From Bolinopsis microptera (lineage: Eukaryota > Ctenophora > Tentaculata > Lobata > Bolinopsidae), in NCBI RefSeq assembly GCF_026151205.1, contig NC_087077.1, positions 12,002,983 to 12,066,982 of the forward strand: a stretch of 64,000 nt of DNA. The letters are read 5' to 3'. The stretch's first letter is position 1. Each line of letters starts with the position of its first letter. The notes under the pieces are model-generated. The model was not told the DNA's origin. It ran no database searches and saw nothing but the letters and a program-made list of their open reading frames with translations. This document shows, piece after piece, positions 364-64,000 of this stretch. The position numbers and the translations under genes are program-made.

Positions 364-25415
<25,052 letters not shown>

Positions 25416-27903: not shown

Positions 27904-28847
27904 AACTAAGTAGTGCACCATCGACAGTGAGCCGCGCATTGCATGCCGACTGTAGGATGGTTTTTTAGCGCTAATTTCGGCCAGCACAAAATTCTTGAAA
28001 CACATGCTTATTGAGTAACTTTCCCTTGATCCAATTTTAACAAAAATTGGTAAGCTTACTCATAGACTTACAAGGAAAGTGTCCGAAAAATTTAAAGCAT
28101 ATCCAACCATTAGACATTTTGTTACAGCTAAAAACAGCGTATTTTGCCCCATTTTCATCACTTTATCAACTCCGATATCCACCAAATTTTTCGGACAGTT
28201 GTGAAAGCCCTATTGGAAGGTCGTCACCAATTTTCAGAATGATCTCATTCATATCATATCAAGGAACCGAAGATATATCAGAATAGTACGACAAAAATCA
28301 ACGAATTTGGTCAAATTACGCGACTTTTAGTTTTACAGCTACTTTTGCTCCAAAAGCCACGCACCATCAAACATCAAATATGGATTATGGCTCCTATCCT
28401 GGGCAAAACTCACTGATCTTTCTAAAAGAGTATGAAAAATTTGGTACTGTGAAAATTCTCACAGTCTCTTGATCATTGATTGACGATGTTTGTAGGTTTA
28501 CAACCTACCAGGACGCGCGCCGAGTTGGACTCGTCGACGGTCCAATATATGGAACAGATATTTTACGAGTATCACCCGTTAAGACGATGTCAACCCATCG
28601 AGATCGTTGCTCTGCGAATTGATTGACGATGTCAATCCGTCGAGATCGTTGCTCGACGATCGATGCGAAGCAAGAATGCTAGTTTGCGCGGCGCGTCGAA
28701 GCGGCGAAGTCCTCCAACTCTGCGAAGCAAGAATGCTAGTTCGCGCGGCGCGTCGAAGCGTCAAAGTCCTCTAAACAGTTTTTAGAAAACAATGGTACAA
28801 ACATTTTAAAAATCCGAACAAGTTTATTTTATCGTGCACCCCCTATA
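27904..28847. mobile_element. Copy 2 of the TGCRCCAT-ended element, interrupted
   Basis: Starts GTAGTGCACCATCGACAGTG and ends TATCGTGCACCCCCT. It is collinear with the uninterrupted 593-bp copy at 58539-59131, apart from an insert at ~28490-28775 that breaks the homology. The shared internal frame (SLLIDLQGKCPK.../YQLRYPPNFSDSCESPIGRS) is probably coincidental or a remnant. Confidence 0.75.
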
Positions 28848-34204: not shown

Positions 34205-34321
34205 GGATACGGCCATACTCGGTTGAATACACCCCATCTCGTTCGATCTGGAAGTTAAGCAACTGCAGGCCGGGTTAGTACTTGGATGGGTGACCGCCTG
34301 GGAATTCCCGGTGCCGTATCC
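34205..34321 (+). rRNA. 5S rRNA gene
   Basis: 117 nt with the canonical eukaryotic 5S layout: complementary ends GGATACGGCC/GGTGCCGTATCC, ACACCCCATCTCGTTCGATC, GGAAGTTAAGCAA, and the internal control region GGTTAGTACTTGGATGGGTG followed by ACCGCCTGGGAA. A TTTT Pol III terminator follows at once. It looks intact. It is a single copy here, not part of a 5S array, and it sits in the TIR-bounded unit. Confidence 0.93.
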
Positions 34322-34580
34322 TTTTGTTATATTTCCGAAGAATTGTTTTACTGAACAGAAGAAATTGTGAATGGCTTTTTCAGAATTGCAGTGGTTATTA
34401 AGAATAGCATTTTATCCTTAGCAATATAGTCTATGTTCAAACGCAAGGAAATGTTTCCAAATGTCAGAATAACATGGCTTAGAATAGCTACAAAGTTTTG
34501 TCTGAAAGGGCTTTGGTGTTTCATTCTAAGATCTATCTGAAACATTCTTATCTGCTCAAAATTGATTAGAATATATTCTT

Positions 34581-36898
34581 AAGTTAACTTGAAGAGTACT
34601 ACAAGGTATCCTGAAGTTAACTTGAAGGGTACTACAAGGTATCCTAGAGTTAACTCAAAAATTACTACAAGTTATCCTGAAGTTAACTTGAAGAGTACTA
34701 CAAGGTATCCTGAAGTTAACTTGAAGGGTACTATAAGGTATCCTGAAGTTAACTTGAAGAGTACTACAAGGTATCCTGAAGTTAACTTGAAGAGTACTAC
34801 AAAGTATCCTGGATTTAACTCAAAAAGTACTACAAGGTTATATCCTGAAGTTAACTTGAAGAGTACTACAAGGTATCCTGAACTTAACTTGAAGAGTACT
34901 ACAAGGTAACCTGAAGGTGACTTGAAGAGTACTACAAGGTAACCTGAAGGTGACTTGAAGAGTACTACAAGGTATCCTGAAGTTAACTTGAAGAGTACTA
35001 CAAGGTATCCTGAACTTAACTTGAAGAGTACTACAAGGTAACCTGAAGGTGACTTGAAGAGTACTACAAGGTATCCTGAACTTAACCTGAAGAGTACTAC
35101 AAGGTATCCTGAACTTAACTGAAGAGTACTACAAGGTATCCTGAACTTAACCTGAAGAGTACTACAAGGTATCCTGAACTTAACCTGAAGAGTACTACAA
35201 GGTATCCTGAACTTAACCTGAAGAGTACTACAAGGTATCCTGAACTTAACCTGAAGAGTACTACAAGGTATCCTGAACTTAACCTGAAGAGTACTACAAG
35301 GTATCCTGAACTTAACCTGAAGAGTACTACAAGGTATCCTGAACTTAACCTGAAGAGTACTACAAGGTATCCTGAACTTAACCTGAAGAGTACTACAAGG
35401 TATCCTGAACTTAACCTGAAGAGTACTACAAGGTATCCTGAACTTAACCTGAAGAGTACTACAAGGTATCCTGAACTTAACCTGAAGAGTACTACAAGGT
35501 ATCCTGAACTTAACCTGAAGAGTACTACAAGGTATCCTGAACTTAACCTGAAGAGTACTACAAGGTATCCTGAAGTTAACTTGAAGAGTACTACAAGGTA
35601 TCCTAGATTTAACTTGAAGAGTACTACAAGGTATCCTGAAGTTAACTTGAAGAGTACTACAAGGTATCCTGAACTTAACTTGAAGAGTACTACAAGGTAT
35701 CCTGAAGTTAACTTGAAGAGTACTACAAGGTAACCTGAAGTTAACTTGAAGAGTACTACAAGGTATCCTGAGTTAACTCAAAAGTACTACAAGGTTATCC
35801 TGAAGTTAACTTGAAGAGTACTACAAGGTATCCTGAACTTAACTTGAAGAGTACTACAAGGTATCCTGAACTTAACTTGAAGAGTACTACAAGGTATCCT
35901 GAAGTTAACTTGAAGAGTACTACAAGGTATCCTGAACTTAACTTGAAGAGTACTACAAGGTATCCTGAAGTTAACTTGAAGAGTACTACAAGGTATCCTG
36001 AAGTTAACTTGAAGAGTACTACAAGGTATCCTGAGTTAACCTGAAGAGTACTACAAGGTATATCCTGAAGTTAACTTGAAGGGTACTATAAGGTATCCTG
36101 AACTTAACTTGAAGAGTACTACAAGGTATCCTGAAGTTAACTTGAAGAGTACTACAAGTTATCCTGAAGTTGACTTGAAGAGTACTACAAGGTATCCTGG
36201 AGTTAACTCTTATAGAGAACTACAAGTTATCCTGAAGTTAACTTGAAGAGTACTACAAGGTATTCTGAAGTTAACTCAAAAAGTACTACAAGGTAACCTG
36301 AAGTTAACTTGAAGAGTACTACAAGGTATTCTGAAGTTAACTTGAAGGGTACTATAAGGTATCCTGAAGTTAACTTGAAGAGTACTACAAGGTATCCTGA
36401 ACTTAACTTGAAGAGTACTACAAGGTATCCTGAACTTAACTTGAAGAGTACTACAAGGTATCCTGAAGTTAACTTGAAGAGTACTACAAGGTATCCTGAA
36501 CTTAACTTGAAGAGTACTACAAGGTATCCTGAACTTAACTTGAAGAGTACTACAAGGTATCCTGGAGTTAACTCAAAAAGTACTACAAGGTTATATCCTG
36601 AAGTTAACTTGAAGAGTACTACAAGGTATCCTGAACTTAACTTGAAGAGTACTACAAGGTATCCTGGAGTTAACTCAAAAAGTACTACAAGGTAACCTGA
36701 AGTTAACTTGAAGAGTACTACAAGGTATTCTGAAGTTAACTTGAAGGGTACTATAAGGTATCCTGAAGTTAACTTGAAGAGTACTACAAGGTATCCTGTA
36801 GTTAACTTGAAGAGTACTACAAGGTATCCTGAAGTTAACTTGAAGAGTACTACAAGGTATCCTAGAGTTAACTCTTATAGAGAACTACAAGTTAGCTT
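34581..36898 (+). repeat. 33-bp minisatellite, about 70 copies
   Basis: Unit GAAGTTAACTTGAAGAGTAC plus TACAAGGTATCCT. A central block (~35077-35566) has about fifteen near-identical units of the CTTAACCTGAAG variant; the flanks mix several variants, some in higher-order arrangement (34581-34910 resembles 36240-36890). Because 33 is divisible by three, it yields open frames of an 11-residue period (KSTTRYPEVNL). I regard these as translation of satellite. Confidence 0.97.
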
Positions 36899-37442
36899 CA
36901 AGTTATCATTTATCTACTTAATTTAACCTAAACAACCTCCATGTTGTTGTAACCTGCAGGCAACCGTGGATCAACTTAAGATAAAGCGATGATATGATCC
37001 TGAAGTTAACTGACAGAAAGCATGAAGTTTCAACCTACAGTTAGATATGCGTCGTCTTCCAATTATATCGGTCCTGATATTTGAAATTTGATCGCCTCTC
37101 GGATTTGCTCTCGGATCCTATAGGATTTGAGTATCCTATCGGGTCCGAGAGCAAATCCTATCGGCACTCGGAATTGTTAAATCCTATCTCCGCTAGGATT
37201 AGCGCTCGGATCCGATAGGTTCTTAATTTCCTATCGGGTCCGAGAGCAAATCCTATCGCCTCTCGGAACTTACACATCCTATCGCCGCTCGGCGATAGGA
37301 ATTCATCGGAGGTATCCTGGGGGGACTGGATCGGCGTTAGGATTGATAAAATCCGAGAGATCTCGGACGCGCTAGGATAAATCCTAGGGTAATCCTGTCT
37401 AATTAGAATCGCAGAAATCGACGTTCTGAACAGCCGTGACTG

Positions 37443-52376: not shown

Positions 52377-52955
52377 TTAATCCAGAGTTGATGATGAATT
52401 TAACAATTCTTTAATGATGGCAATGACAACTGCTGCAGTGTTCTTAGCTGGGGAGTCCTCGAGTTTTGGAACATGAATGAAGACTGACTTTCCTTTTCCA
52501 TTGCGCAGGGAATTGTGGAAACTGTACTGACACAAATATTGCCCTGCATCCTCGGAAAGCCTTACAGGAACAGGTAAGGATTGTTCAGAAAGAATTTGAA
52601 CAATTTCTTTTAATGGAAATGCAGATCTAATGAAAGGCCACTTCCCATCTCCTGGTATTTTTTCTTCAACATCTTTGAGCGAATACTCAGTTTCATTGCA
52701 CTGGCACTCAACTGAGACAAATTTTTCTGTGTAAACACCAAGATGAACGCAAAAAAGGGGTGTTTTTGTTTCCCAATATTTTGATATGAACTCCTTAGTG
52801 CTTTCATAGACCACACGGAGTTCTTGAAAATCGAACTCAATACCTTTTAAAACAAGTTCCTTACTCACTATTTTTAATGTCTCAGAACTGGCATTAACAG
52901 GATGATTGGCAAATGGGCCAAATCCAGTAATCAAAACACGACTTGCCATTTTCAA
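52377..52955 (-). CDS. PGPEP1: Pyroglutamyl-peptidase I (peptidase family C15)
   Basis: Single-exon ORF, 192 aa, close to the family's usual 200-220. The enzyme removes N-terminal pyroglutamate from peptides in the cytosol. It starts with the family signature VLITGFGPFANHPVNAS. The catalytic triad can be placed: Glu83 (VSVEC), Cys142 (SEDAGQYLCQY) and His161 (FIHVP). The first Met or Met3 could start; Met3 (MASRVL) matches relatives better. It lies upstream of TAOK in the same orientation. No intron is needed. It appears functional. Confidence 0.95.
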   Translation of the reverse strand: MKMASRVLITGFGPFANHPVNASSETLKIVSKELVLKGIEFDFQELRVVYESTKEFISKYWETKTPLFCVHLGVYTEKFVSVECQCNETEYSLKDVEEKIPGDGKWPFIRSAFPLKEIVQILSEQSLPVPVRLSEDAGQYLCQYSFHNSLRNGKGKSVFIHVPKLEDSPAKNTAAVVIAIIKELLNSSSTLD

Positions 52956-54350
52956 CCTGGAGTTATTTTAATGAGCATTTACATGGATTTAATGTTCACT
53001 AAACAGGGTGTCGTATAAAACTTTTTAGTCCCTTTCTGATTCACAACTTATACTCATTTAAAACTGTATTCTAGAATTATGACTGTTTTCTAGAGGGGGA
53101 CGTATATTTCCATCCACTGCTCTGGTCAGTTCTTGTGTTTCAAAGTAATTGCCATAAAATTAAGAATATTATTTTAACTTTCATCTATGTAATTGTAGGA
53201 AATCAAAAAGTGAACTATACTCATGTCTTGTACGCGTACAAATTCAACTCATGACATAATACATTCAAACTCCAAAGCTATTGTGTCGTCAAATAGAACA
53301 TTGTCAATGACATGTGCAACTTTCAATGAATCTAAATGTAACTATACAAGGAAATAACGTAGGTCTAGCATGTAGCTCTTGGCCTGCAAATGTTTAGTAT
53401 CATTATACCAATGCAGTAAACACAATACAAGTAAACGTTTAGATAAGAAAGAGTGAAACAAATTTTAGTGAAACAAATTTAAAATTTTAAGAGTGAATAA
53501 GTTACAACCAAGGTATAGTGAAACAATTTTATCGATTATGAATTTGATCCATGTAATTATAAATTAATATGATTAAATTTTAGGGAATTTCAATGCATAT
53601 TGTGGGGCATATTTACGAACGATTGTAGGAACAAAAGTGCTTACACCGCTTAAGGGCATATACAGGGTGTTATATTGTTAACACCATCTATACATGAGTT
53701 TAACACAAATATTAGATATTACTATAGACACAGGTCACAGTGGAAACATTCAGCCTAGTGGCTATTAGATGGACCTTGCCAAAAGATCAAGAATCTTCTT
53801 AGGATACACCTTCAGCTTCAGTACGCCTAAATTGTATAACTGTAAACAAACTATTGATATATATATATATTAGAGCCTTCAAGGGCGGCGTATTAGGGAA
53901 AAGAAGTACACTTAACCAGATATCATGACCCCGATTACATTTGAAATAGTCAGTTCTCTATATACTAGCTCTTATAAGATATCTTCTCTGCAATTAGCAG
54001 CCAAAGACATATTAGCTCTATCCCGCAATGCTCAAGAAAAAGTGACAATGTGCTGAATGGCCAGAGACTGTCAGAGTAAGCCGTAAACATTCGTGGAACA
54101 TTTTCAAGGCAAAACACATGACAAACATAATAGCCTAACTAAACAAGAGTAAAGGTTTCTTCGACAATGCTTTCAGATGTCAGAGGGGAATGTTATAACT
54201 CAGTTCGTCTTCAGATCCAATACAATAACTGCAGCATGCAATGATTATTACCCAATTGTAAGTATTAGCAACTAAAATTCAACTCTAAGGATTTATTGCT
54301 TATGTCTGTACCTAGATCTACTTTAACAGCTCTACAACTTTTTATTCTTC
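52956..54350. other. Intergenic spacer with a SINE-tail fragment
   Basis: 53720-53850 carries the CCAAAAGATCAAGAATCTT tail of the SINE at 20142, with a CAGCCTAGTGGC piece. The rest shows no gene. Confidence 0.45.
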
Positions 54351-56117: not shown

Positions 56118-56944
56118 ACAACAACGTTTGTGCGGCATTTTCACATTTGTTGTTAATAAGTTCACATAACATACTAGCTGTTAAAATATAAGACACAAAA
56201 ATAACCCTACTATTTATTCACAGATAAATTAGAAACGTTTCAATCAAGATGGAAAAATTTCCTTGTGCGGAAATAATTTTGTTTAGAAGTGCAACATTTG
56301 AAAACTTCTTATGAAAGATTTTCATCATCATCATCCTTCCACCACCTGATTAACATATTTTGTGTTTGAACATGTTTAAGTTTTACTATCACTGTTGTAT
56401 GGTCCTAGTGTGATCATACGTGCCCTTGGATCATTATCTGAAAGTTTTTGTCAAATCAATTTTTTTGTCTCCCAAGACCAAGAGGAATCATTATATCATG
56501 CTCCACAACTACAGGGGGCCAAAAGTCATTACCTATACGTTGGCCTAAGGCCTTAATAGCTCAGTCACTGAGTGCCCAATTGAAAACAATCCCCTTCAAC
56601 AAATTTAATTCAGTGTTGTCGGCCCACAGGTTCCTCCTATTAACACATTTTGATTTTGGTAAATGTTTGCTGACAGAGGGGCGAGAAAGAACTTTGTCAA
56701 TATAGACAGTTTAGATTTGAACTTGGAGCCGCAAGGCCAAGGGTGATTTTGAAAACTTTGATTTGTTGAAGGGTTTCGTTTTTTCCTTTTATATAGGGTC
56801 ATTGTGACACTATGTGTATACTGTTCTTATCCATTATCATTTTACTACTTTCCATTATCATTTTACTACTTTCATTACGCATCAATATTTTTCCTCTGTA
56901 ATCTACCTTTTCTTATCGCACTGAGCTTGTGATTTATACTGATC

Positions 56945-59322
56945 ATGTCGCGACGAAATTCTGCAACTCCTACACCTAATACCTCTACACCTACATCATC
57001 CCAGAGGAAGAAACTACCTTCTAAAGCTGCTTCTGAGTCAATCGCTGACCCAGAAGCACCTTCTATCGGTATGTTGGGGTTTGGGGTGTCAGCGAATTAC
57101 ACGTTTGCAGCAACAACATGCCTTCACTTGTTAAGCTTACTGCCTGCTCCCGATTTAGATTTTGAGTTCGAAAGACTCCGCCTCCTTTCGAAAAGTGCTA
57201 CTAAAGCAAGCACAACGGACAACAAAATTTCTTTTTTAAGAAAGCATTTATTAGGCCAATGTGCCCTAGACGCTGACGAGACAATGAACAAATTAACTGC
57301 GAGTCTAAAACTCATTTCATGTACCGTTAATGAAGAGGTTGAGAAGGCGGTCAACAGCATCACGGAACGAGCCTGCACTGCGATCCAGGAAGTCTCTGAA
57401 GAGTCCAGGAAGCAGACCTCTCTCATTGTTGAAGCAGCTAGCTCTCCACAGACTCTCCCCTTCCGGTGAAGTAGCAAGTATACCTAACCCACCACCTCCG
57501 GTAAGATTTTTGGACTGTGACTTTGGTGAACTTTCTTTTGATGAAATCTACCGCGAGCTTGACTTTAACATGAAACACCCGGGGGGCCGTTCAACGTCAT
57601 ATTTTGGCTCGGTACCTTACAGTTATGGCAGAACCAACCACCGTGCATCCCATGATAATCCCTTGCCGCCTGTCCTAAAGCGCATATTTGATTGTTTGCA
57701 TGAATCCGATCCTGACATTACTCCCACGAACTACACCTGCCTATGTACTTACTATAAGGACGGGTCAGTTGGTATCCCATCGCATAGTGACAGCGAATCC
57801 AGCATTGTAGAAGATAGTCTGATTTACACTGCATCATTTGGCTCTACCAGAATTATGAGAATGTCAACGTCGACAGGCCCTTTCGTTGAGCATAACATTC
57901 CGCTTGAGCACGGCTCTGTCTTTGCAATGTCTCAATCTGATCAGAACCACTGGCAGCACGGCATTGAACGTGATCCTCTGTTAAGGCAGCCACGAATCTC
58001 GCTCACTCTTCGCAAGTTGAAACAGCCTGATCCCACGGCCTTGCCAGCACCTGCAGCCCCTTCTCGGGTCCCGCCTGTTGCACCACCTACACAGAAACAG
58101 TCACCAACGTCCCGTCACTCCAGAGTCCTCTTTATTCACAACTCAATACACCGAGAAAGGCCAGAATGGCTGTTCGATCAGATACCTGGCCACCGATGTC
58201 AAAAGCGACTTAACTATCAACTAGTAGACTCTCTGGAACATCAAAATGAGTTCAAACATTCTAAAGCAGTCGTACTTTCCTGCGGCATTAATGACCTAGC
58301 TAGGTATGGGCCAGTCGGCCAGGAGTCTAGCGGACAATTTCTGTCCCCGTTTTATAGACTCTTGTAACAATAACAAGAATACCGAGTTTATGTTTTGTGC
58401 TTTATCTATGACTAAATTTAACTGGTTGAATGCAGAGATTGACGCTTTTAATATCATGATGTTGAACCTGGCTAAGGATATTCCAAATCTGAGTTTTTTC
58501 GATGCCCATGCCGTGATCAAGCGTGTTAACTCATACTAGGTAGTGCGCCATCGACAGTGAGCCGCGCGTGCCGACTGTAGGATGGTTTTTTAGCGCTAAT
58601 TTCGGCCAGCACAATTTTCTTCAAACAAATAGATATTAAGTATCCTTCCCGACCTCCGATTGCAACAAAAATTGATAAGCTTACTTATAGACTTACAAGG
58701 AAGGTGTCCGAAAAGTTTAAAGCATATCCAACCATCAGACATTATGTTACAGCTAAAAGCAGCGTATTTTGCCTCATTTTTATCACTATATCAACTCCGA
58801 TATCCACCAAATTTTTCGGACAGTTGTGAAAGCCCTATTGGAAGGTCGTCGCCAATTTTCAGAATGATCTCATTCAAGGAACTGAAGATATATCCAAATA
58901 ATACGACAAAAATCAACGAATTTGGTCAAATTTGGTCAAATTACGCGACTTTTACAGCTAATTTTGCTCCAAAAGCCGCGCACCATCAAATATGGCACCT
59001 AGGCGAAACTCGCTGATCTTTCCAAAAAGGTATGACAAATTTGGTATTGTGAAAATTCTCAATGTCTCTAGAAAACAATGGTACAAAAATTTTTAAAATC
59101 CGAGCAAGTTTATTTTTATGGTGCACCCCCTACTCATACTACGTATGGGACCGCAACGACAGACATGGCATCCACTTATATCACGAGGTGCAAAGGGTAG
59201 TGGCACATGAACTTGTTAACTGCGTTGGCAAGTTATGTGGATCTGAACAGAGACGTCACAGGAACTGTGAGTGGCTCTATCACCACAAGCCCAACAGTCT
59301 CTCCAGATATAACCGAAGCTGA
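56945..59322 (+). pseudogene. Retrotransposon ORF1 with AlkB-like and SGNH-like domains, broken
   Basis: The first part (56945-57475) encodes a Ser/Thr/Pro-rich N-terminus and a helical segment. After a frameshift near 57460 the frame 57330-58367 carries an AlkB-like dioxygenase: HSD (His152, Asp154 of that frame), HWQHG (His210) and QPRISLTLRKL (Arg222, Arg228), then an SGNH-like start (RVLFIHNSIH, VVLSCGINDL). A second frameshift near 58303 leads to 58306-58528. There a 593-bp element (58539-59131) is inserted; on its far side the same frame resumes with DRHGIHLYHEVQRVVAHELV to a stop near 59322. The copy is dead but shows the same architecture as the ORF1 at 59820. No ORF2 follows. Confidence 0.85.
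58539..59131. mobile_element. 593-bp transposon insertion, 10-bp target duplication
   Basis: Bounded by ACTCATACTA on both sides (58529-58538 and 59132-59141). The ends are GGTAGTGCGCCAT and the inverse of GGGGGTGCACCAT, so weak TIRs. The size of the duplication would fit Mutator-like or related DNA elements. Same family as 27904-28847. The interior has no clear transposase. Confidence 0.85.
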
Positions 59323-59819
59323 GCGCTTTACAAATCATTGATACCATTCTGATTAAAAAATACGATACCATTTTTCTCAACTTCCAGTCCACCTTTAACA
59401 GATCGTTACCAAGATCGAACATATAATGAAATGATCTGATTGGTGGAATTTTTCTCATTATCTGATAAGCTCATCCATTATCAGTATCTCTTATCACCCA
59501 ATCGCACACAAAACATCTTACTCTACAAATCTGTATCATCCTAAATCAATGAGATTTCATTACTCTATACAAAATTCAAAATTCACATACAAGTTTTAAT
59601 ACTTTCAACACTACTATATAACAAATAATTTGAGGTATGAGATATGATAGACGAGCGTAAGTGTTGACGTGCAAAGGACTGCTGTGAGTGTACTTGAAGA
59701 TTACTCATCCTCCTCCTTCTCATCAAAACTATTCTCATCAAAACTACTATCTGGACTGAAGGTATTGCGTTTACAGTGTTTATTGTGCTTCTGAACATTG
59801 AACTCTTGATAATATAACT
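59323..59819. other. Spacer, probable 5' UTR/promoter of the second LINE
   Basis: No ORF of note. It lies between the dead first ORF1 and the intact second one. An internal LINE promoter would be expected here but cannot be identified by eye. Confidence 0.35.
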
Positions 59820-61694
59820 ATGTCAAATAATCAGAGCTCAGACATTAGTCTCCACTCTTGTGAGCGCCCTTTAGAACATTTGAACTTTTCATTCCAGTCT
59901 GAAAAATCAGAGAACTGTAACAATTGTCTGTCAAAAGACATCAAGATTGACTTTTTAGAAAAAAAGTTGTCTTTATTGAATGAAATTATCAGAACTAGTG
60001 ATCTCATTGCTCAGTACAATGATAGTCTCATATCAGATCAAACTCAAATACAAGAACAGAGTTTTAAGTGTGAAAATTTGCTGCCAAACTTGTCAGAGGA
60101 GATTGAATGTGAGATCATAACCATTACCCCTCAGTCACACGTTGTTATCAATCAAGTAGAAGCGTTTGATGTAGATGACATTGTTGTGGAAGATGTTGTA
60201 TCGGACAGTTTGTTTGTTGACAACGATGTCGTGGACAAGGTTGTTCCACAGGAGGTTGTTGGAAACGAGATTGTTATCAGTGAGATTGTTGTTAACGAGG
60301 TTATGGCAGACGAGGATGATGTGTCTGATCTCCCTGTATCTACTGCTACTGGTGAATCACGGATCAACACCCCTAAGCCCAGAGACAAATATCCAAACTT
60401 GGTCCCTGCCCCTGTCTACGATCCTATAACACCGGGGCCAATGAATATATCTGTAACTTGTTCCCCATCACCAGTGAAACCAGTTACCCTACTAGATGAT
60501 GGTCCATTCTCTAAATTTTCACTTGATCTATTAATGGAAGAACTTGAGTTCAGTCACGGTTTTAAAAACAGGAAATCGGTTTATTTTGGTGACTTTCCCT
60601 ATGAGTATTCAGGTGCAACACATGACCCAAAAAGTGTACACAATGATTCCTACCTTGCTAAACTCAGCTCCTACATTAATGTGATATTACCCAATTTCAG
60701 ACACAATAGTATTCTCGTCAATCTATATGAAACTGGAGCAGAGTTCATGCCAGCTCATAGCGATTCTGAATCATGTATTGTAGAACACTCTGATATTGTA
60801 ACCATTTCACTTGGTGCGACGAGAACACTGCAAATTAGATCAAACGGCAGCAATGAAGTTGTGGGCTCTGTGCAGCTTCAGCATGGAGATGTCTTCATCA
60901 TGTCCAAATTGTCTCAGGCTGACTTTCAACATGAGATACTGCCAGACGAAATGTGTGATGAACCCCGGATCAGCATCACCCTAAGACTGATGAAGCCCCC
61001 TAGGATCACTCAGTCAACTGAGTTTGGTCTGCGTTCACCGCCCCCACCCATCCCTCATTCAGGACACAAACTGACAGACTCTTCTTCACCTGCACTCTCA
61101 GTTTGCAAACAGTCAGCTAAAGCTTCACAAAAGTCTGTCCTATTCATAAGCAGCTCTATGTTCAGGTTTCTTGATGCGGACAAGTTATCATCGTCCACTG
61201 TTAGTGCTAGTAAACTGTTTTATCCTGGGGCTGATGCCAAAGTAATGTTAAATAAACTAAAAACTGACCTACACTCCGTTCCATCCCCATCTATTATTTA
61301 TATTATGACAGGAACTAATAATGTGAACACAGTCTATTTTGGCTCAAAGTCACTGAAGGATGCAGCGGGTGACATTAGTAATCTCTTAAATTATCTCAAG
61401 TCAGTGTATCCGAATGCAACAATTAATGTTCTCAATATTCTTCCCAGGAGTACAAAAGGCCGCAATGATGTTGTGGCAGAGCTGAATAAGGTTATTAAGG
61501 ATATGTGTAGCAAAGATTCTTGTTTTAATTACATTAGCACCCATAATTTATTTAACTATAATAGAAGTGGATTCAGGAAAGAATTTTATTTTGCCAGACC
61601 ATCTGCAAAAATATCTGATAACTGTCACCTCAATACAAGCGGTGTTATTCGACTTGCTAAATTTCTGAAGTATTGGGCCCATAAGCAAGTTTGA
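59820..61694 (+). CDS. Retrotransposon ORF1: AlkB-like dioxygenase + SGNH hydrolase-like protein
   Basis: Intact ORF of 624 aa. Residues 1-90 include a Cys cluster (CNNCLSKD) and a predicted coiled coil; 110-170 is an acidic, Val-rich repeat region (IVVEDVV, DVVDKVV, EIVVNEV); 225-392 is a 2-oxoglutarate/Fe(II) dioxygenase of AlkB type. Its metal ligands His313-x-Asp315 (PAHSDSESC) and His371 (FQHEI), and the 2-oxoglutarate-binding R383xxxxxR389 (PRISITLRL), are all present. After a Pro/Ser linker, 438-620 is an SGNH/GDSL-like domain: LFISSSM (nucleophile region ~444-446), TGTNN (500), DNCHL (Asp600, His603). An esterase domain is known in ORF1 of CR1-type LINEs; the AlkB domain is the unusual part. 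By analogy with AlkB domains of plant RNA viruses it might repair alkylated RNA; this is inference. ORF2 follows 159 bp downstream. Confidence 0.85.
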   Translation: MSNNQSSDISLHSCERPLEHLNFSFQSEKSENCNNCLSKDIKIDFLEKKLSLLNEIIRTSDLIAQYNDSLISDQTQIQEQSFKCENLLPNLSEEIECEIITITPQSHVVINQVEAFDVDDIVVEDVVSDSLFVDNDVVDKVVPQEVVGNEIVISEIVVNEVMADEDDVSDLPVSTATGESRINTPKPRDKYPNLVPAPVYDPITPGPMNISVTCSPSPVKPVTLLDDGPFSKFSLDLLMEELEFSHGFKNRKSVYFGDFPYEYSGATHDPKSVHNDSYLAKLSSYINVILPNFRHNSILVNLYETGAEFMPAHSDSESCIVEHSDIVTISLGATRTLQIRSNGSNEVVGSVQLQHGDVFIMSKLSQADFQHEILPDEMCDEPRISITLRLMKPPRITQSTEFGLRSPPPPIPHSGHKLTDSSSPALSVCKQSAKASQKSVLFISSSMFRFLDADKLSSSTVSASKLFYPGADAKVMLNKLKTDLHSVPSPSIIYIMTGTNNVNTVYFGSKSLKDAAGDISNLLNYLKSVYPNATINVLNILPRSTKGRNDVVAELNKVIKDMCSKDSCFNYISTHNLFNYNRSGFRKEFYFARPSAKISDNCHLNTSGVIRLAKFLKYWAHKQV

Positions 61695-61853
61695 ATTTTC
61701 AGAAAGATTGTTAACATTTATTTCATCTAGATAAGGGATAATTACACATTGTTCCTCATGTTTATTGAAGTTTTAGAAAGTTTTGTTATTATCTCATACA
61801 AATTTGCCAGTTCTGCAATTTATCTTATTCTGACAAGTTTATAGCAGCATAAA

Positions 61854-64000
61854 TTGGAAAAATTTTCATGCTCTCACAGCAGTTCTTGCATTAACCCGTG
61901 CATTAGTAAAATCACAGTTTCATACCATGCCAAAAAGCTTGCAGTGGGACATTGCAACATGCAGGGAGGACTAACAGGTATGCCAAAATGTCTTGAAATC
62001 CAAGATCTAATCTGGAAAGAGAAATTAGATGTTTTATGCCTGAATGAAACAAATCTTAAGTCGGATATTGACTCAGCCAGTCTAAACCTACCCAAGAATT
62101 TTACTTTTATCCGCAAAGACCGTCATAACGACAATGGTCATGGGGGATGTGGCATTCTCATCAGTGAGCACATAAAGTTTAAAATGATTCAACTAAACTT
62201 AGTTTTGCAATATGACCAAATCGAGGCTATTTGGATCCATCTTACAGATTGCAATATTTTCATCTGCTGTTTCTACAGATCTGAGTTGTTTAGTCCTCTT
62301 GACAAATTTTTAGATTATATGACAGACTGCATGATGAGTATAGGAAGTAAGAATGTTATTTGGCTGGGTGATGTAAATGTAGACCAAAACAACATCAGCA
62401 GTATGAACTATAAGAAATTAGACATTACAATGAAAATGTTTGGAATGGTACAGGTAGTTCAGGATATTACCCGCATTGCTAAACTAGGAAACAGAATCAC
62501 AAAGACCACAATCGATGTTGTCATAACAAACACTTACTCCAAGTTTCTTGACTGCAAAGTCCTTGATGATTGTATAGGGGATCATCAGGTCGTAAAGTTC
62601 ATTGTCGATTTCAATGTGCATAAGGCCTCAAAATTCAAGAAGTTACTAATAAGAGATCACAGCAAAATGAATGTTACTGCTCTTAAAGAATTTTTGGAAA
62701 CTTGTGATTATAGACCAATAATAGATTCAACTAGTCTGAATGATGCAGTTGATGGTTTAAACGAACATATTGATCACTACTATGATCACTTCTGTCCAAT
62801 TAAACAAATTAAGTGCCATAGTGATTACATCCATAAGCCATCTCCAGAATTTTTAGAAAGTAAGAAATTGAAAGGGAAACTTTACCGTAAATTTTTAACA
62901 CACAACAAGAACAGACGTATACATCCAAATGGTCTTATACACTGTAATAAATGTGACTCATTATGGATGGCATATAAACGGCAGAGAAACTATTCAACCT
63001 ATTTGTCTAGAATTAATAGGAAGACTAACTTAGCAACAGAACTGAAAGCCAAGTGTGCCATGAATGATCTAAAGGGTGTATGGAAAACGATAAAGACAGC
63101 ATCAAATCTGCCTGTTAAAGCTAACAATATCAATAACAATCTTGATGCTGAAACCACCAATAAATATTTTGCTGAAATAGGTCCAAAGATCCAAGCAGAA
63201 GTGCAGCTGGAAAATAAAAATGAATTTCTATCTTATCTACAAAATGAGCAGATTGACAACGATACCAGCTTGAATAGCTTTACTGAAATAACTGAGTCCA
63301 ATATCTTAGACTATGTGGCAAGTATCCCTTGTAGCAAATCCACTAATGATCATATACCATTGAGAGTGTTTAGACAAATTTTACCTGCATTTATTGCTCC
63401 ATTAACACATCTTGTAAATTTGAGTTTATCCAGTGGCATCATGCCAAACAGCTGCAAGGTTGCAAAAGTCACCCCAATCCATAAGGATGGTGATACTGAG
63501 AATCCTAGTAATTATCGACCAATCTCAATTTTACCGATTCTTGGAAAGTGCATCGAATTTTGTGTGAACTCCCAACTGACTCAATATCTTGATGAAAAGG
63601 GAATACTTTCAGAGCATCAATATGGTTTCCGTAAAGATCACTCTACAACTTATCTCATGTTAGATCTGTTTGATCGTATATTTACTGCTAAGAACAGTGC
63701 CAAGCATCCTGCAATTATCTTCCTGGACATCAGAAAGGCATTTGATACCATGATATTCTCATTCAAAAGCTGAAGCATTATGGAATAAAAGATACTGCAT
63801 TGAGCTGGTTTAGGAGCTTCCTCACAGATAGATTACAGCAAACTAGAGTTGGGAGTAGGATAAGCAGTTTACATTCATTGAACTCTGGAGTGCCTCAAGG
63901 AAGTATATTAGGACCAATTCTATTCAGCATTTTTATCAATGACCTGCCTAATGCATGCCTATTTTCTAAACCTTATCTATTTGCTGATGACGGTGCATTA
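61854..64000 (+). CDS. Retrotransposon ORF2: APE endonuclease + reverse transcriptase (partial)
   Basis: Runs off the window. The N-terminal endonuclease (APE/EEP fold) has CNMQGG, LNETNL (catalytic Glu), GGCGILI, WLGDVNVD (GDxN), TIDVVITN and GDHQVV (SDH-like). The reverse transcriptase follows: KVTPIHKDGD, NYRPISILPILGK, EHQYGFRKDHST, FLDIRKAFDT, GVPQGSILGPILFSIFINDL and FADDG at the window's end. The frame from 61854 stops at 63773; the RT continues in another frame after about 63750, so there is a small indel just past AFDT. The first in-frame codon after the upstream stop is TTG and the first ATG lies inside the endonuclease, so translation may use reinitiation or a non-ATG start. The motifs fit the CR1/L2 group with APE endonuclease. 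Confidence 0.92.

Follow-up and report, generated by a model that had tools for sequence, protein, structure and literature searches.

The locus described here raises the question of whether a retrotransposon can carry a demethylase-family enzyme within its own ORF1 protein and, if so, what that enzyme might do for the element. The window that we analysed is a 64,000-nt stretch of the Bolinopsis microptera genome (contig NC_087077.1, positions 12,002,983 to 12,066,982 of the forward strand), and near its right end are two LINEs, designated F1 and F5. The features of this segment are as follows.

56933..58542, plus strand: broken F5 ORF1 with an AlkB domain (Pfam AlkB, 8.2e-19), frameshifted in the part equivalent to SGNH
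58543..59131, no strand assigned: ~0.6-kb repeat inside F5 ORF1, with 14 bp (2667-2680 of locus L044) on both sides
59132..59592, plus strand: end of F5 ORF1 (to 59316) and spacer ahead of F5 ORF2; F1 sits at the right edge
59592..64000, plus strand: F1 LINE (5.9 kb), bounded by comparison with other copies and by the empty site in L044 (F5)
~65484 in window coordinates, beyond the window: 3' end of F1, with a (TTTA)n tail
59592..59819, plus strand: F1 5' untranslated leader; the sequence common to copies starts ~228 bp 5' of the ATG
59820..61694, plus strand: F1 ORF1, 624 aa, ordered as coiled coil, disordered acidic linker, AlkB and SGNH
59919..60056, plus strand: predicted long helix (coiled coil), residues 34-79, from the structure model
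60468..61001, plus strand: AlkB-like 2OG-Fe(II) dioxygenase, residues 217-394, from Pfam, alignments and predicted fold; H313, D315 and H371 (iron), R383/R389 (2OG site), and also conserved R251, Y261, Y263 and E317
61125..61685, plus strand: SGNH (GDSL) esterase, residues 436-622, with S446, G470, N500, D600 and H603
61854..63770, plus strand: first part of F1 ORF2 (APE endonuclease, start of RT); past a frameshift, the RT resumes in a different frame and runs on to the edge of the window

The original prediction, made from the sequence of this ORF, was that an AlkB-like dioxygenase with a complete motif set is fused to an SGNH esterase in a LINE ORF1, and a significant dioxygenase match together with the predicted fold supported it. 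The F1 domain has the HxD...H iron site, the R...R 2OG site and, in the structure model, the double-stranded beta-helix fold. F1 ORF1 as a whole is of Type IV, the esterase type, with the S/N/D-H esterase residues and a coiled coil that is predicted as a long helix; the zebrafish ZfL2-1 ORF1p (PDB 4c1b) gave a profile match to it at 3.8e-10. The closest sequence matches of the F1 AlkB domain were ALKBH3 and ALKBH2, and among the 44 chains that passed E 0.01 in this sequence comparison there was none named ALKBH5 or FTO. For structure comparison, the 1000 top chains from Foldseek were re-aligned to the predicted F1 ORF1 model; human ALKBH3 and ALKBH2 were 23-30% identical to the domain over ~172 residues.

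We examined conservation of these residues in an alignment of 104 rows, consisting of the 2 window copies, 66 relatives from a first protein search and 36 rows from a second. H313, D315, H371, R383 and R389 were all kept in 101 of the 104, in an alignment in which the median share of the top residue per column was 0.34. The exceptions were P0027 and P0041, in which the segment is missing, and P0207, with R389W; H313, D315, H371 and R383 were each invariant in the 103 rows having that column. R251 (97 rows), Y261 (96), Y263 (93) and E317 (100) were nearly as constant, and align in sequence with ALKBH2/3 positions that we take to be base- or DNA-handling residues. N301, presumably the counterpart of a 2OG contact in AlkB, was far less constant, with an N in 39 of the 104 rows. 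The esterase residues S446, N500, D600 and H603 were all kept in 92 rows; the other 12 were six short lone AlkBs (P0217-P0222), P0216 (N for D600), P0064, and four rows that are cut short (window copy 2, P0188, P0214 and P0215). P0064, of 436 aa, has an AlkB followed by a PC4 domain and no SGNH, and by these data is no LINE ORF1.

To which element this ORF belongs was settled from the genomic DNA of its copies. A search of the genome (264.65 Mb in 232 contigs) with F1 ORF1 gave at least 81 matches, with 71 of 980 first-look candidates scored. These included 20 full-length, stop-free F1 copies that are 99-100% identical, 19 further F1 rows, 85-100% identical, that are incomplete or disrupted, and 14 rows of a family with 608-619 codons and 41-44% identity to F1 ORF1. 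The 20 copies that we compared were picked for a complete ORF1 without stops, so that the sequence 3' of ORF1 was unselected; in all 20, at 20 sites, it was ORF2 sequence. The whole 4180 bp up to the window end was matched by 19 of the 20. The copies have ~5.9 kb in common, start at or near the same point, end in (TTTA)n and have unlike flanks; internal stretches are added or absent in three of them, and L033 matches the first 3.3 kb only. ORF2 is frameshifted in the window's copy, but runs to as many as 1009 codons, with a FADD motif, in others (1009 codons in 12 of 20 copies and at least 971 in 16). In the L020 copy, Pfam matched ORF2 to RVT_1 (5.5e-36) and, both under the cut-off, to Exo_endo_phos (1.9e-4) and Exo_endo_phos_2 (4.6e-4).

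The locus L044 matches both flanks of the window's F1 copy without containing F1, and is therefore an empty site from which we conclude that this copy was inserted into F5, between its ORF1 and ORF2. Target-site duplications showed no consistent pattern across the fetched copies, being short or unclear, and the overlap at the empty site was at most 2 bp. With its APE- and RT-bearing ORF2, its dispersed copies and this empty site, F1 is a recently active APE-type LINE. The multicopy linkage and the empty site bore out the further expectation that an APE-RT ORF2 belongs to the same element, and answered the worry about assembly. Placement of F1 in CR1/L2 would draw on two features, the ORF1 type and the 3' microsatellite. 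An argument for ORF1-ORF2 linkage from equal-sized contigs of relatives (5 equal against 1.2 by chance, p=0.006) was dropped: for 2 of these 5 pairs, a single contig of that size is too short to hold both ORFs.

The original prediction came with a proposed check of dN/dS across copies. Pairwise values for 19 copies, the twentieth (626 codons) being left out, were 0.14 (AlkB), 0.19 (SGNH), 0.39 (N-terminus) and 0.50 (linker), and ORF2 gave 0.18 in the 12 full-length copies; all of these are rough, because counts are small, substitutions that follow insertion are neutral and the copies had been picked for freedom from stops. Polymorphic codons gave a similar picture for AlkB, in which 4 of 12 were nonsynonymous against 78% expected (p=0.001, or p=0.009 with 70% expected). 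The corresponding counts were 8 of 17 for SGNH (p 0.005; 0.04 with 70% expected) and 12 of 21 for the N-terminus (p 0.02; 0.15 with 70% expected). The AlkB codons of F1 are under purifying selection.

F5, into which F1 was inserted, also encodes an AlkB. Its ORF1 in the window is 96.3% identical to that of L044, which is open for 593 codons and matched Pfam AlkB at 2.8e-19 and GDSL at 0.001, under the cut-off; the window's F5 ORF1 copy had no Pfam match to GDSL. The 0.6-kb repeat inside this ORF1 has an apparent 14-bp duplication at its flanks, and a second copy of the repeat, ~84% identical, lies within 27905-28845.

Pfam AlkB found at least 151 matches in the same genome (150 of 587 candidates scored), and all of those listed were stop-free but the last. 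That AlkB-bearing frames recur at the same lengths (551-552, 593, 611, 646, 676, 707 and others) suggests several multicopy AlkB families. We fetched representatives, as follows.

L038-L040: F2 family, ORF1 of 611-619 codons
L041: F3 family, ORF1 of 644 codons
L043: F4 family, ORF1 of 551 codons
L044: F5 family, ORF1 of 593 codons
L046 (G000:C2:22917400-22924000): F6 family, ORF1 of 843 codons
L045: PHD-type piece
L052 (G000:C2:13101780-13103240): 478-codon type

The ORF2s of F1, F2 and F4 are of the FADD type and 50-54% identical to one another; that of F5 has YADD, an extra N-terminal Cys-rich part and 28% identity to F1, and that of F6 has WADD and ~25% identity. F6 ORF1 contains AlkB, then a linker region and then a weak SGNH (E 0.0077). 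By eye, a reversed F1-like ORF2 seems to precede the endonuclease of L041 itself. With 150 of 424 candidates scored, many of the GDSL matches listed in the genome share a frame length of 478-479 codons, and we considered these as possible esterase-only LINEs. This was rejected for L052, the one fetched, which has a very divergent AlkB (E 1.4e-19 with a profile built in this analysis) as well as SGNH and is thus no example of an AlkB-free sister family.

Protein searches extended the distribution. A search of 5.8 billion proteins with F1 ORF1 as query, in which 7988 candidates were scored, yielded 66 relatives, and all 5 that carried organism names were from the ctenophore Mnemiopsis leidyi; a second search, from five distant rows, gave 30 further long relatives. 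Pfam at E 0.01 detected AlkB in 45 of 45, GDSL in 28 and PHD (PF00628) in 1 of the set A2, and AlkB in 35 of 35 and GDSL in 16 of the set A6, the two sets overlapping in P0063, P0065 and P0066. Some relatives have the order PHD, coiled coil, AlkB, SGNH. The ORF1s of one group, clade B (P0065, P0066, part of P0187-P0205, and L045), combine AlkB with an SGNH that has a GDSNT-type serine block, in some cases with a PHD finger in front. IMG/VR scans with the F1 ORF1 protein, with the further ORF1 queries A3 and A7 and with the ORF2 query A8 yielded no relative, and the scan with A2 yielded one lone AlkB, in the 322-kb viral contig L001. A GTDB scan gave 8 bacterial loci that match the SGNH half only, and a phage search gave 4 records that match the AlkB part only, over 23-25% of the query. 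One ORF2, P0068, is 79% identical to that of F1 and was deposited under a Tenacibaculum MAG; its source is probably animal DNA that ended up in the bin of this marine bacterium.

The pairing extends beyond LINEs. Six of the AlkB matches listed share a frame, 2225-3388 codons in length, with Helitron_like_N, and 6 of 41 Helitron_like_N matches are in one open frame with AlkB. In these very large single frames AlkB lies before Rep and the helicase. We read one of these in two overlapping pieces, L042 (G000:C10:16872000-16880500) and L047 (C10:16880400-16884800), as a single frame of 3388 codons that encodes, in order, SGNH (7.5e-6, under the cut-off), a Pro-rich region, AlkB (4.2e-21), DUF6570, Helitron_like_N and a PIF1 helicase (3.3e-22). 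It is classed as a Helitron because its protein unites Rep (Helitron_like_N) with a PIF1 helicase. Its SGNH precedes AlkB, whereas in the LINEs AlkB precedes SGNH. Of the other loci (C9:15.87M, C9:11.09M, C3:14.44M, C12:2.47M and C12:8.33M), all but C12:8.33M had GDSL matches among those listed (150 of 424 candidates scored), so that 4 of the 6 AlkB-Helitron loci, L042/L047 not among them, were represented; the match at C9:11.09M has a stop inside the frame.

We built trees of both domains. In the AlkB tree (55 domains, host ALKBH genes being left out), LINE clade A, with F1-F4, had support of 100/97, clade A plus the F5 group 99/91, and clade B only 75/66. The tree also held 11 lone AlkBs, whose sources are phages, plasmids, metagenomes and a virus. 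Ten of them grouped with F6 and P0064, divided from every other row by a branch of 100/98, which suggests that F6 gained its AlkB separately. The eleventh, P0217, grouped with F5 and P0216 and may thus be a piece of an ORF1. The Helitron row nested on a long branch in clade B, with 96/95 at its fork with P0065, P0066 and P0203. In the SGNH tree, of 45 rows (F5, F6 and P0216 scored too low for entry), clades A and B each formed one group, and the Helitron row was long and unplaced. From these trees, a plausible history would be a single old union of AlkB and SGNH in LINEs, with one or more further gains and a transfer to Helitrons.

Several known systems share parts of this organization. Type IV ORF1s of CR1/L2 LINEs, such as ZfL2-1 ORF1p, likewise have a coiled coil and SGNH and accompany an APE-RT ORF2, but in F1 an AlkB dioxygenase lies between the two. 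Kapitonov and Jurka, whom PMC4120745 cites, reportedly described, in 2003, CR1 ORF1s with PHD and esterase domains; some clade B relatives resemble these, but add AlkB in between. Human ALKBH3 and ALKBH2 have the same fold and catalytic set as F1 AlkB, but are host repair enzymes and not mobile, and we know of no SGNH fusion of either. The AlkB of plant RNA viruses is part of the replicase polyprotein. It is recorded in Alphaflexi-, Betaflexi- and Closteroviridae (PMC9289625), which resemble F1 as genetic parasites with an RNA phase and an AlkB, although the replicons are unrelated. In PMC11294593, AlkB2 figures as a host gene.

The original prediction also took a self-encoded demethylase to be a novelty among retrotransposons, which in that general form does not quite hold. 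A Ty3/Gypsy lineage of the orchid Phalaenopsis carries an ALKBH5-like 2-ODD ORF whose product is an m6A demethylase in vitro, and is described by its authors in terms of epitranscriptomic control (PMC9289625). Like F1, it is a retrotransposon with an AlkB-family enzyme of its own; but it is a plant LTR element with a separate extra ORF, whereas F1, known here from sequence, is an animal LINE whose ALKBH3/2-like AlkB is fused to an esterase and recurs in several families. What is new in F1 is the element class, the esterase fusion, the enzyme subtype and the scale. In the PMC literature, covered mostly at the level of titles and abstracts, neither a LINE nor a Helitron with an AlkB domain came to light. 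The words 'AlkB', 'oxygenase', '2OG' and 'demethylase' are absent from the main texts of PMC3905857, the 4c1b paper, and of PMC4120745, a survey of 448 Jockey-superfamily elements that places esterase ORF1s in two vertebrate groups only.

What, then, might the dioxygenase do? N1-methyladenine and N3-methylcytosine are lesions of the ALKBH3/AlkB type that lie on the Watson-Crick face and block reverse transcription; ALKBH3/2 repair both, and AlkB/ALKBH3 enzymes prefer single strands. Since m1A and m3C block reverse transcription, cleaning of template RNA or cDNA would be the simplest benefit to the element. The explanation that we favor as a whole, and regard as somewhat probable, is that the AlkB of F1 ORF1p demethylates the element's own single-stranded RNA or cDNA, such that target-primed reverse transcription runs through. 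ORF1p multimers would coat F1 RNA by means of their coiled coil and of the surface of AlkB; with Fe(II), O2 and 2-oxoglutarate, AlkB would strip methyl groups, most likely those of m1A and m3C, from this RNA in its single-stranded state or from the growing cDNA; and reverse transcription would proceed on the cleaned template. The esterase probably adds contact with lipid or membrane, or removal of acyl groups. The substrate is not readable from fold or sequence; the orchid enzyme, as noted, is ALKBH5-like and acts on m6A (PMC9289625).

The strongest alternative, which we consider unlikely but by no means negligible, is that AlkB mainly erases host marks (m6A or m1A on transposon RNA, or N6-methyladenine at donor or target DNA), and that the element thereby evades recognition. 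PHD fingers are often chromatin readers, and PF00628 was found in 9 of the 35 A6 rows, among clade B ORF1s. Precedents are the orchid demethylase (PMC9289625) and the rise of N6-methyladenine on young L1s upon Alkbh1 knockout (PMC4982230). Yet F1 itself has no PHD by Pfam, and its AlkB is ALKBH3/2-like rather than ALKBH5-, FTO- or ALKBH1-like.

A second alternative is that the AlkB fold was retained as a nucleic-acid binder, with catalysis of little weight. The esterase ORF1s in RepBase are without RRM or other structural RNA-binding domains (Schneider et al., PMC3905857), so that they would need some such module, which AlkB would then supply. The invariance of H313, D315, H371 and R383 makes this improbable, since loss of the iron and 2OG ligands would be expected in a domain that does no more than bind. 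Within the favored explanation, AlkB may also double as the binding module otherwise absent from esterase-type ORF1s, and so offer an answer to the question of how these proteins, with no structural RNA-binding domain (PMC3905857), handle RNA.

That the partner domain is an esterase, and that the AlkB relatives ALKBH4 and ALKBH7 have protein substrates, might suggest a dioxygenase directed at protein, lipid or the SGNH product; with the repair members ALKBH2/3 as nearest relatives and R251, Y261, Y263 and E317 conserved, we give this very little credence. An artefact, whether a chance ORF, an assembly join or a host gene beside a LINE, found no support and is refuted by ORF1-ORF2 linkage at 20 sites, the empty site, and 66 + 30 long protein relatives.

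Returning to demethylation of the element's own strands, we note that Helitrons transpose via single-stranded DNA, which, with the single-strand preference of AlkB, points to single-stranded intermediates as the feature common to the two element classes. The Helitron pairing also hints that the LINE SGNH esterase cooperates with base demethylation rather than serving as a lipid anchor alone. A bolder reading, which we advance tentatively as a real if minority possibility, is that AlkB and SGNH form a two-enzyme cassette traded among unrelated classes of transposon, namely LINEs with FADD, YADD and WADD RTs and the rolling-circle Helitrons, the two jointly erasing modifications of single-stranded intermediates: AlkB would remove alkyl groups and the esterase an acyl or ester group. 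If so, the spread to at least 151 AlkB matches would record an arms race between transposons and a host defence by chemical marking of transposon RNA or DNA. F1 is in any case an animal retrotransposon with its own demethylase-family enzyme, for which dN/dS is similar to that of its endonuclease-RT. It suggests that chemical marks on nucleic acid are among the pressures that transposons face in early-branching animals. The many recent intact copies make these proposals directly testable.

Elsewhere in the window, degraded frames at 3355-4447 (minus) resemble, by eye, the C-terminal part of another LINE RT, with no Pfam match in frame 3355-4032 (minus). Two likely host genes are also on the minus strand, a glutaminase whose single unbroken frame also encodes EF-hand and ankyrin repeats (5297-7108) and a pyroglutamyl peptidase (52380-52967). 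A 33-bp minisatellite of ~70 copies (34574-36905) directly follows a 5S rRNA gene (34205-34322).
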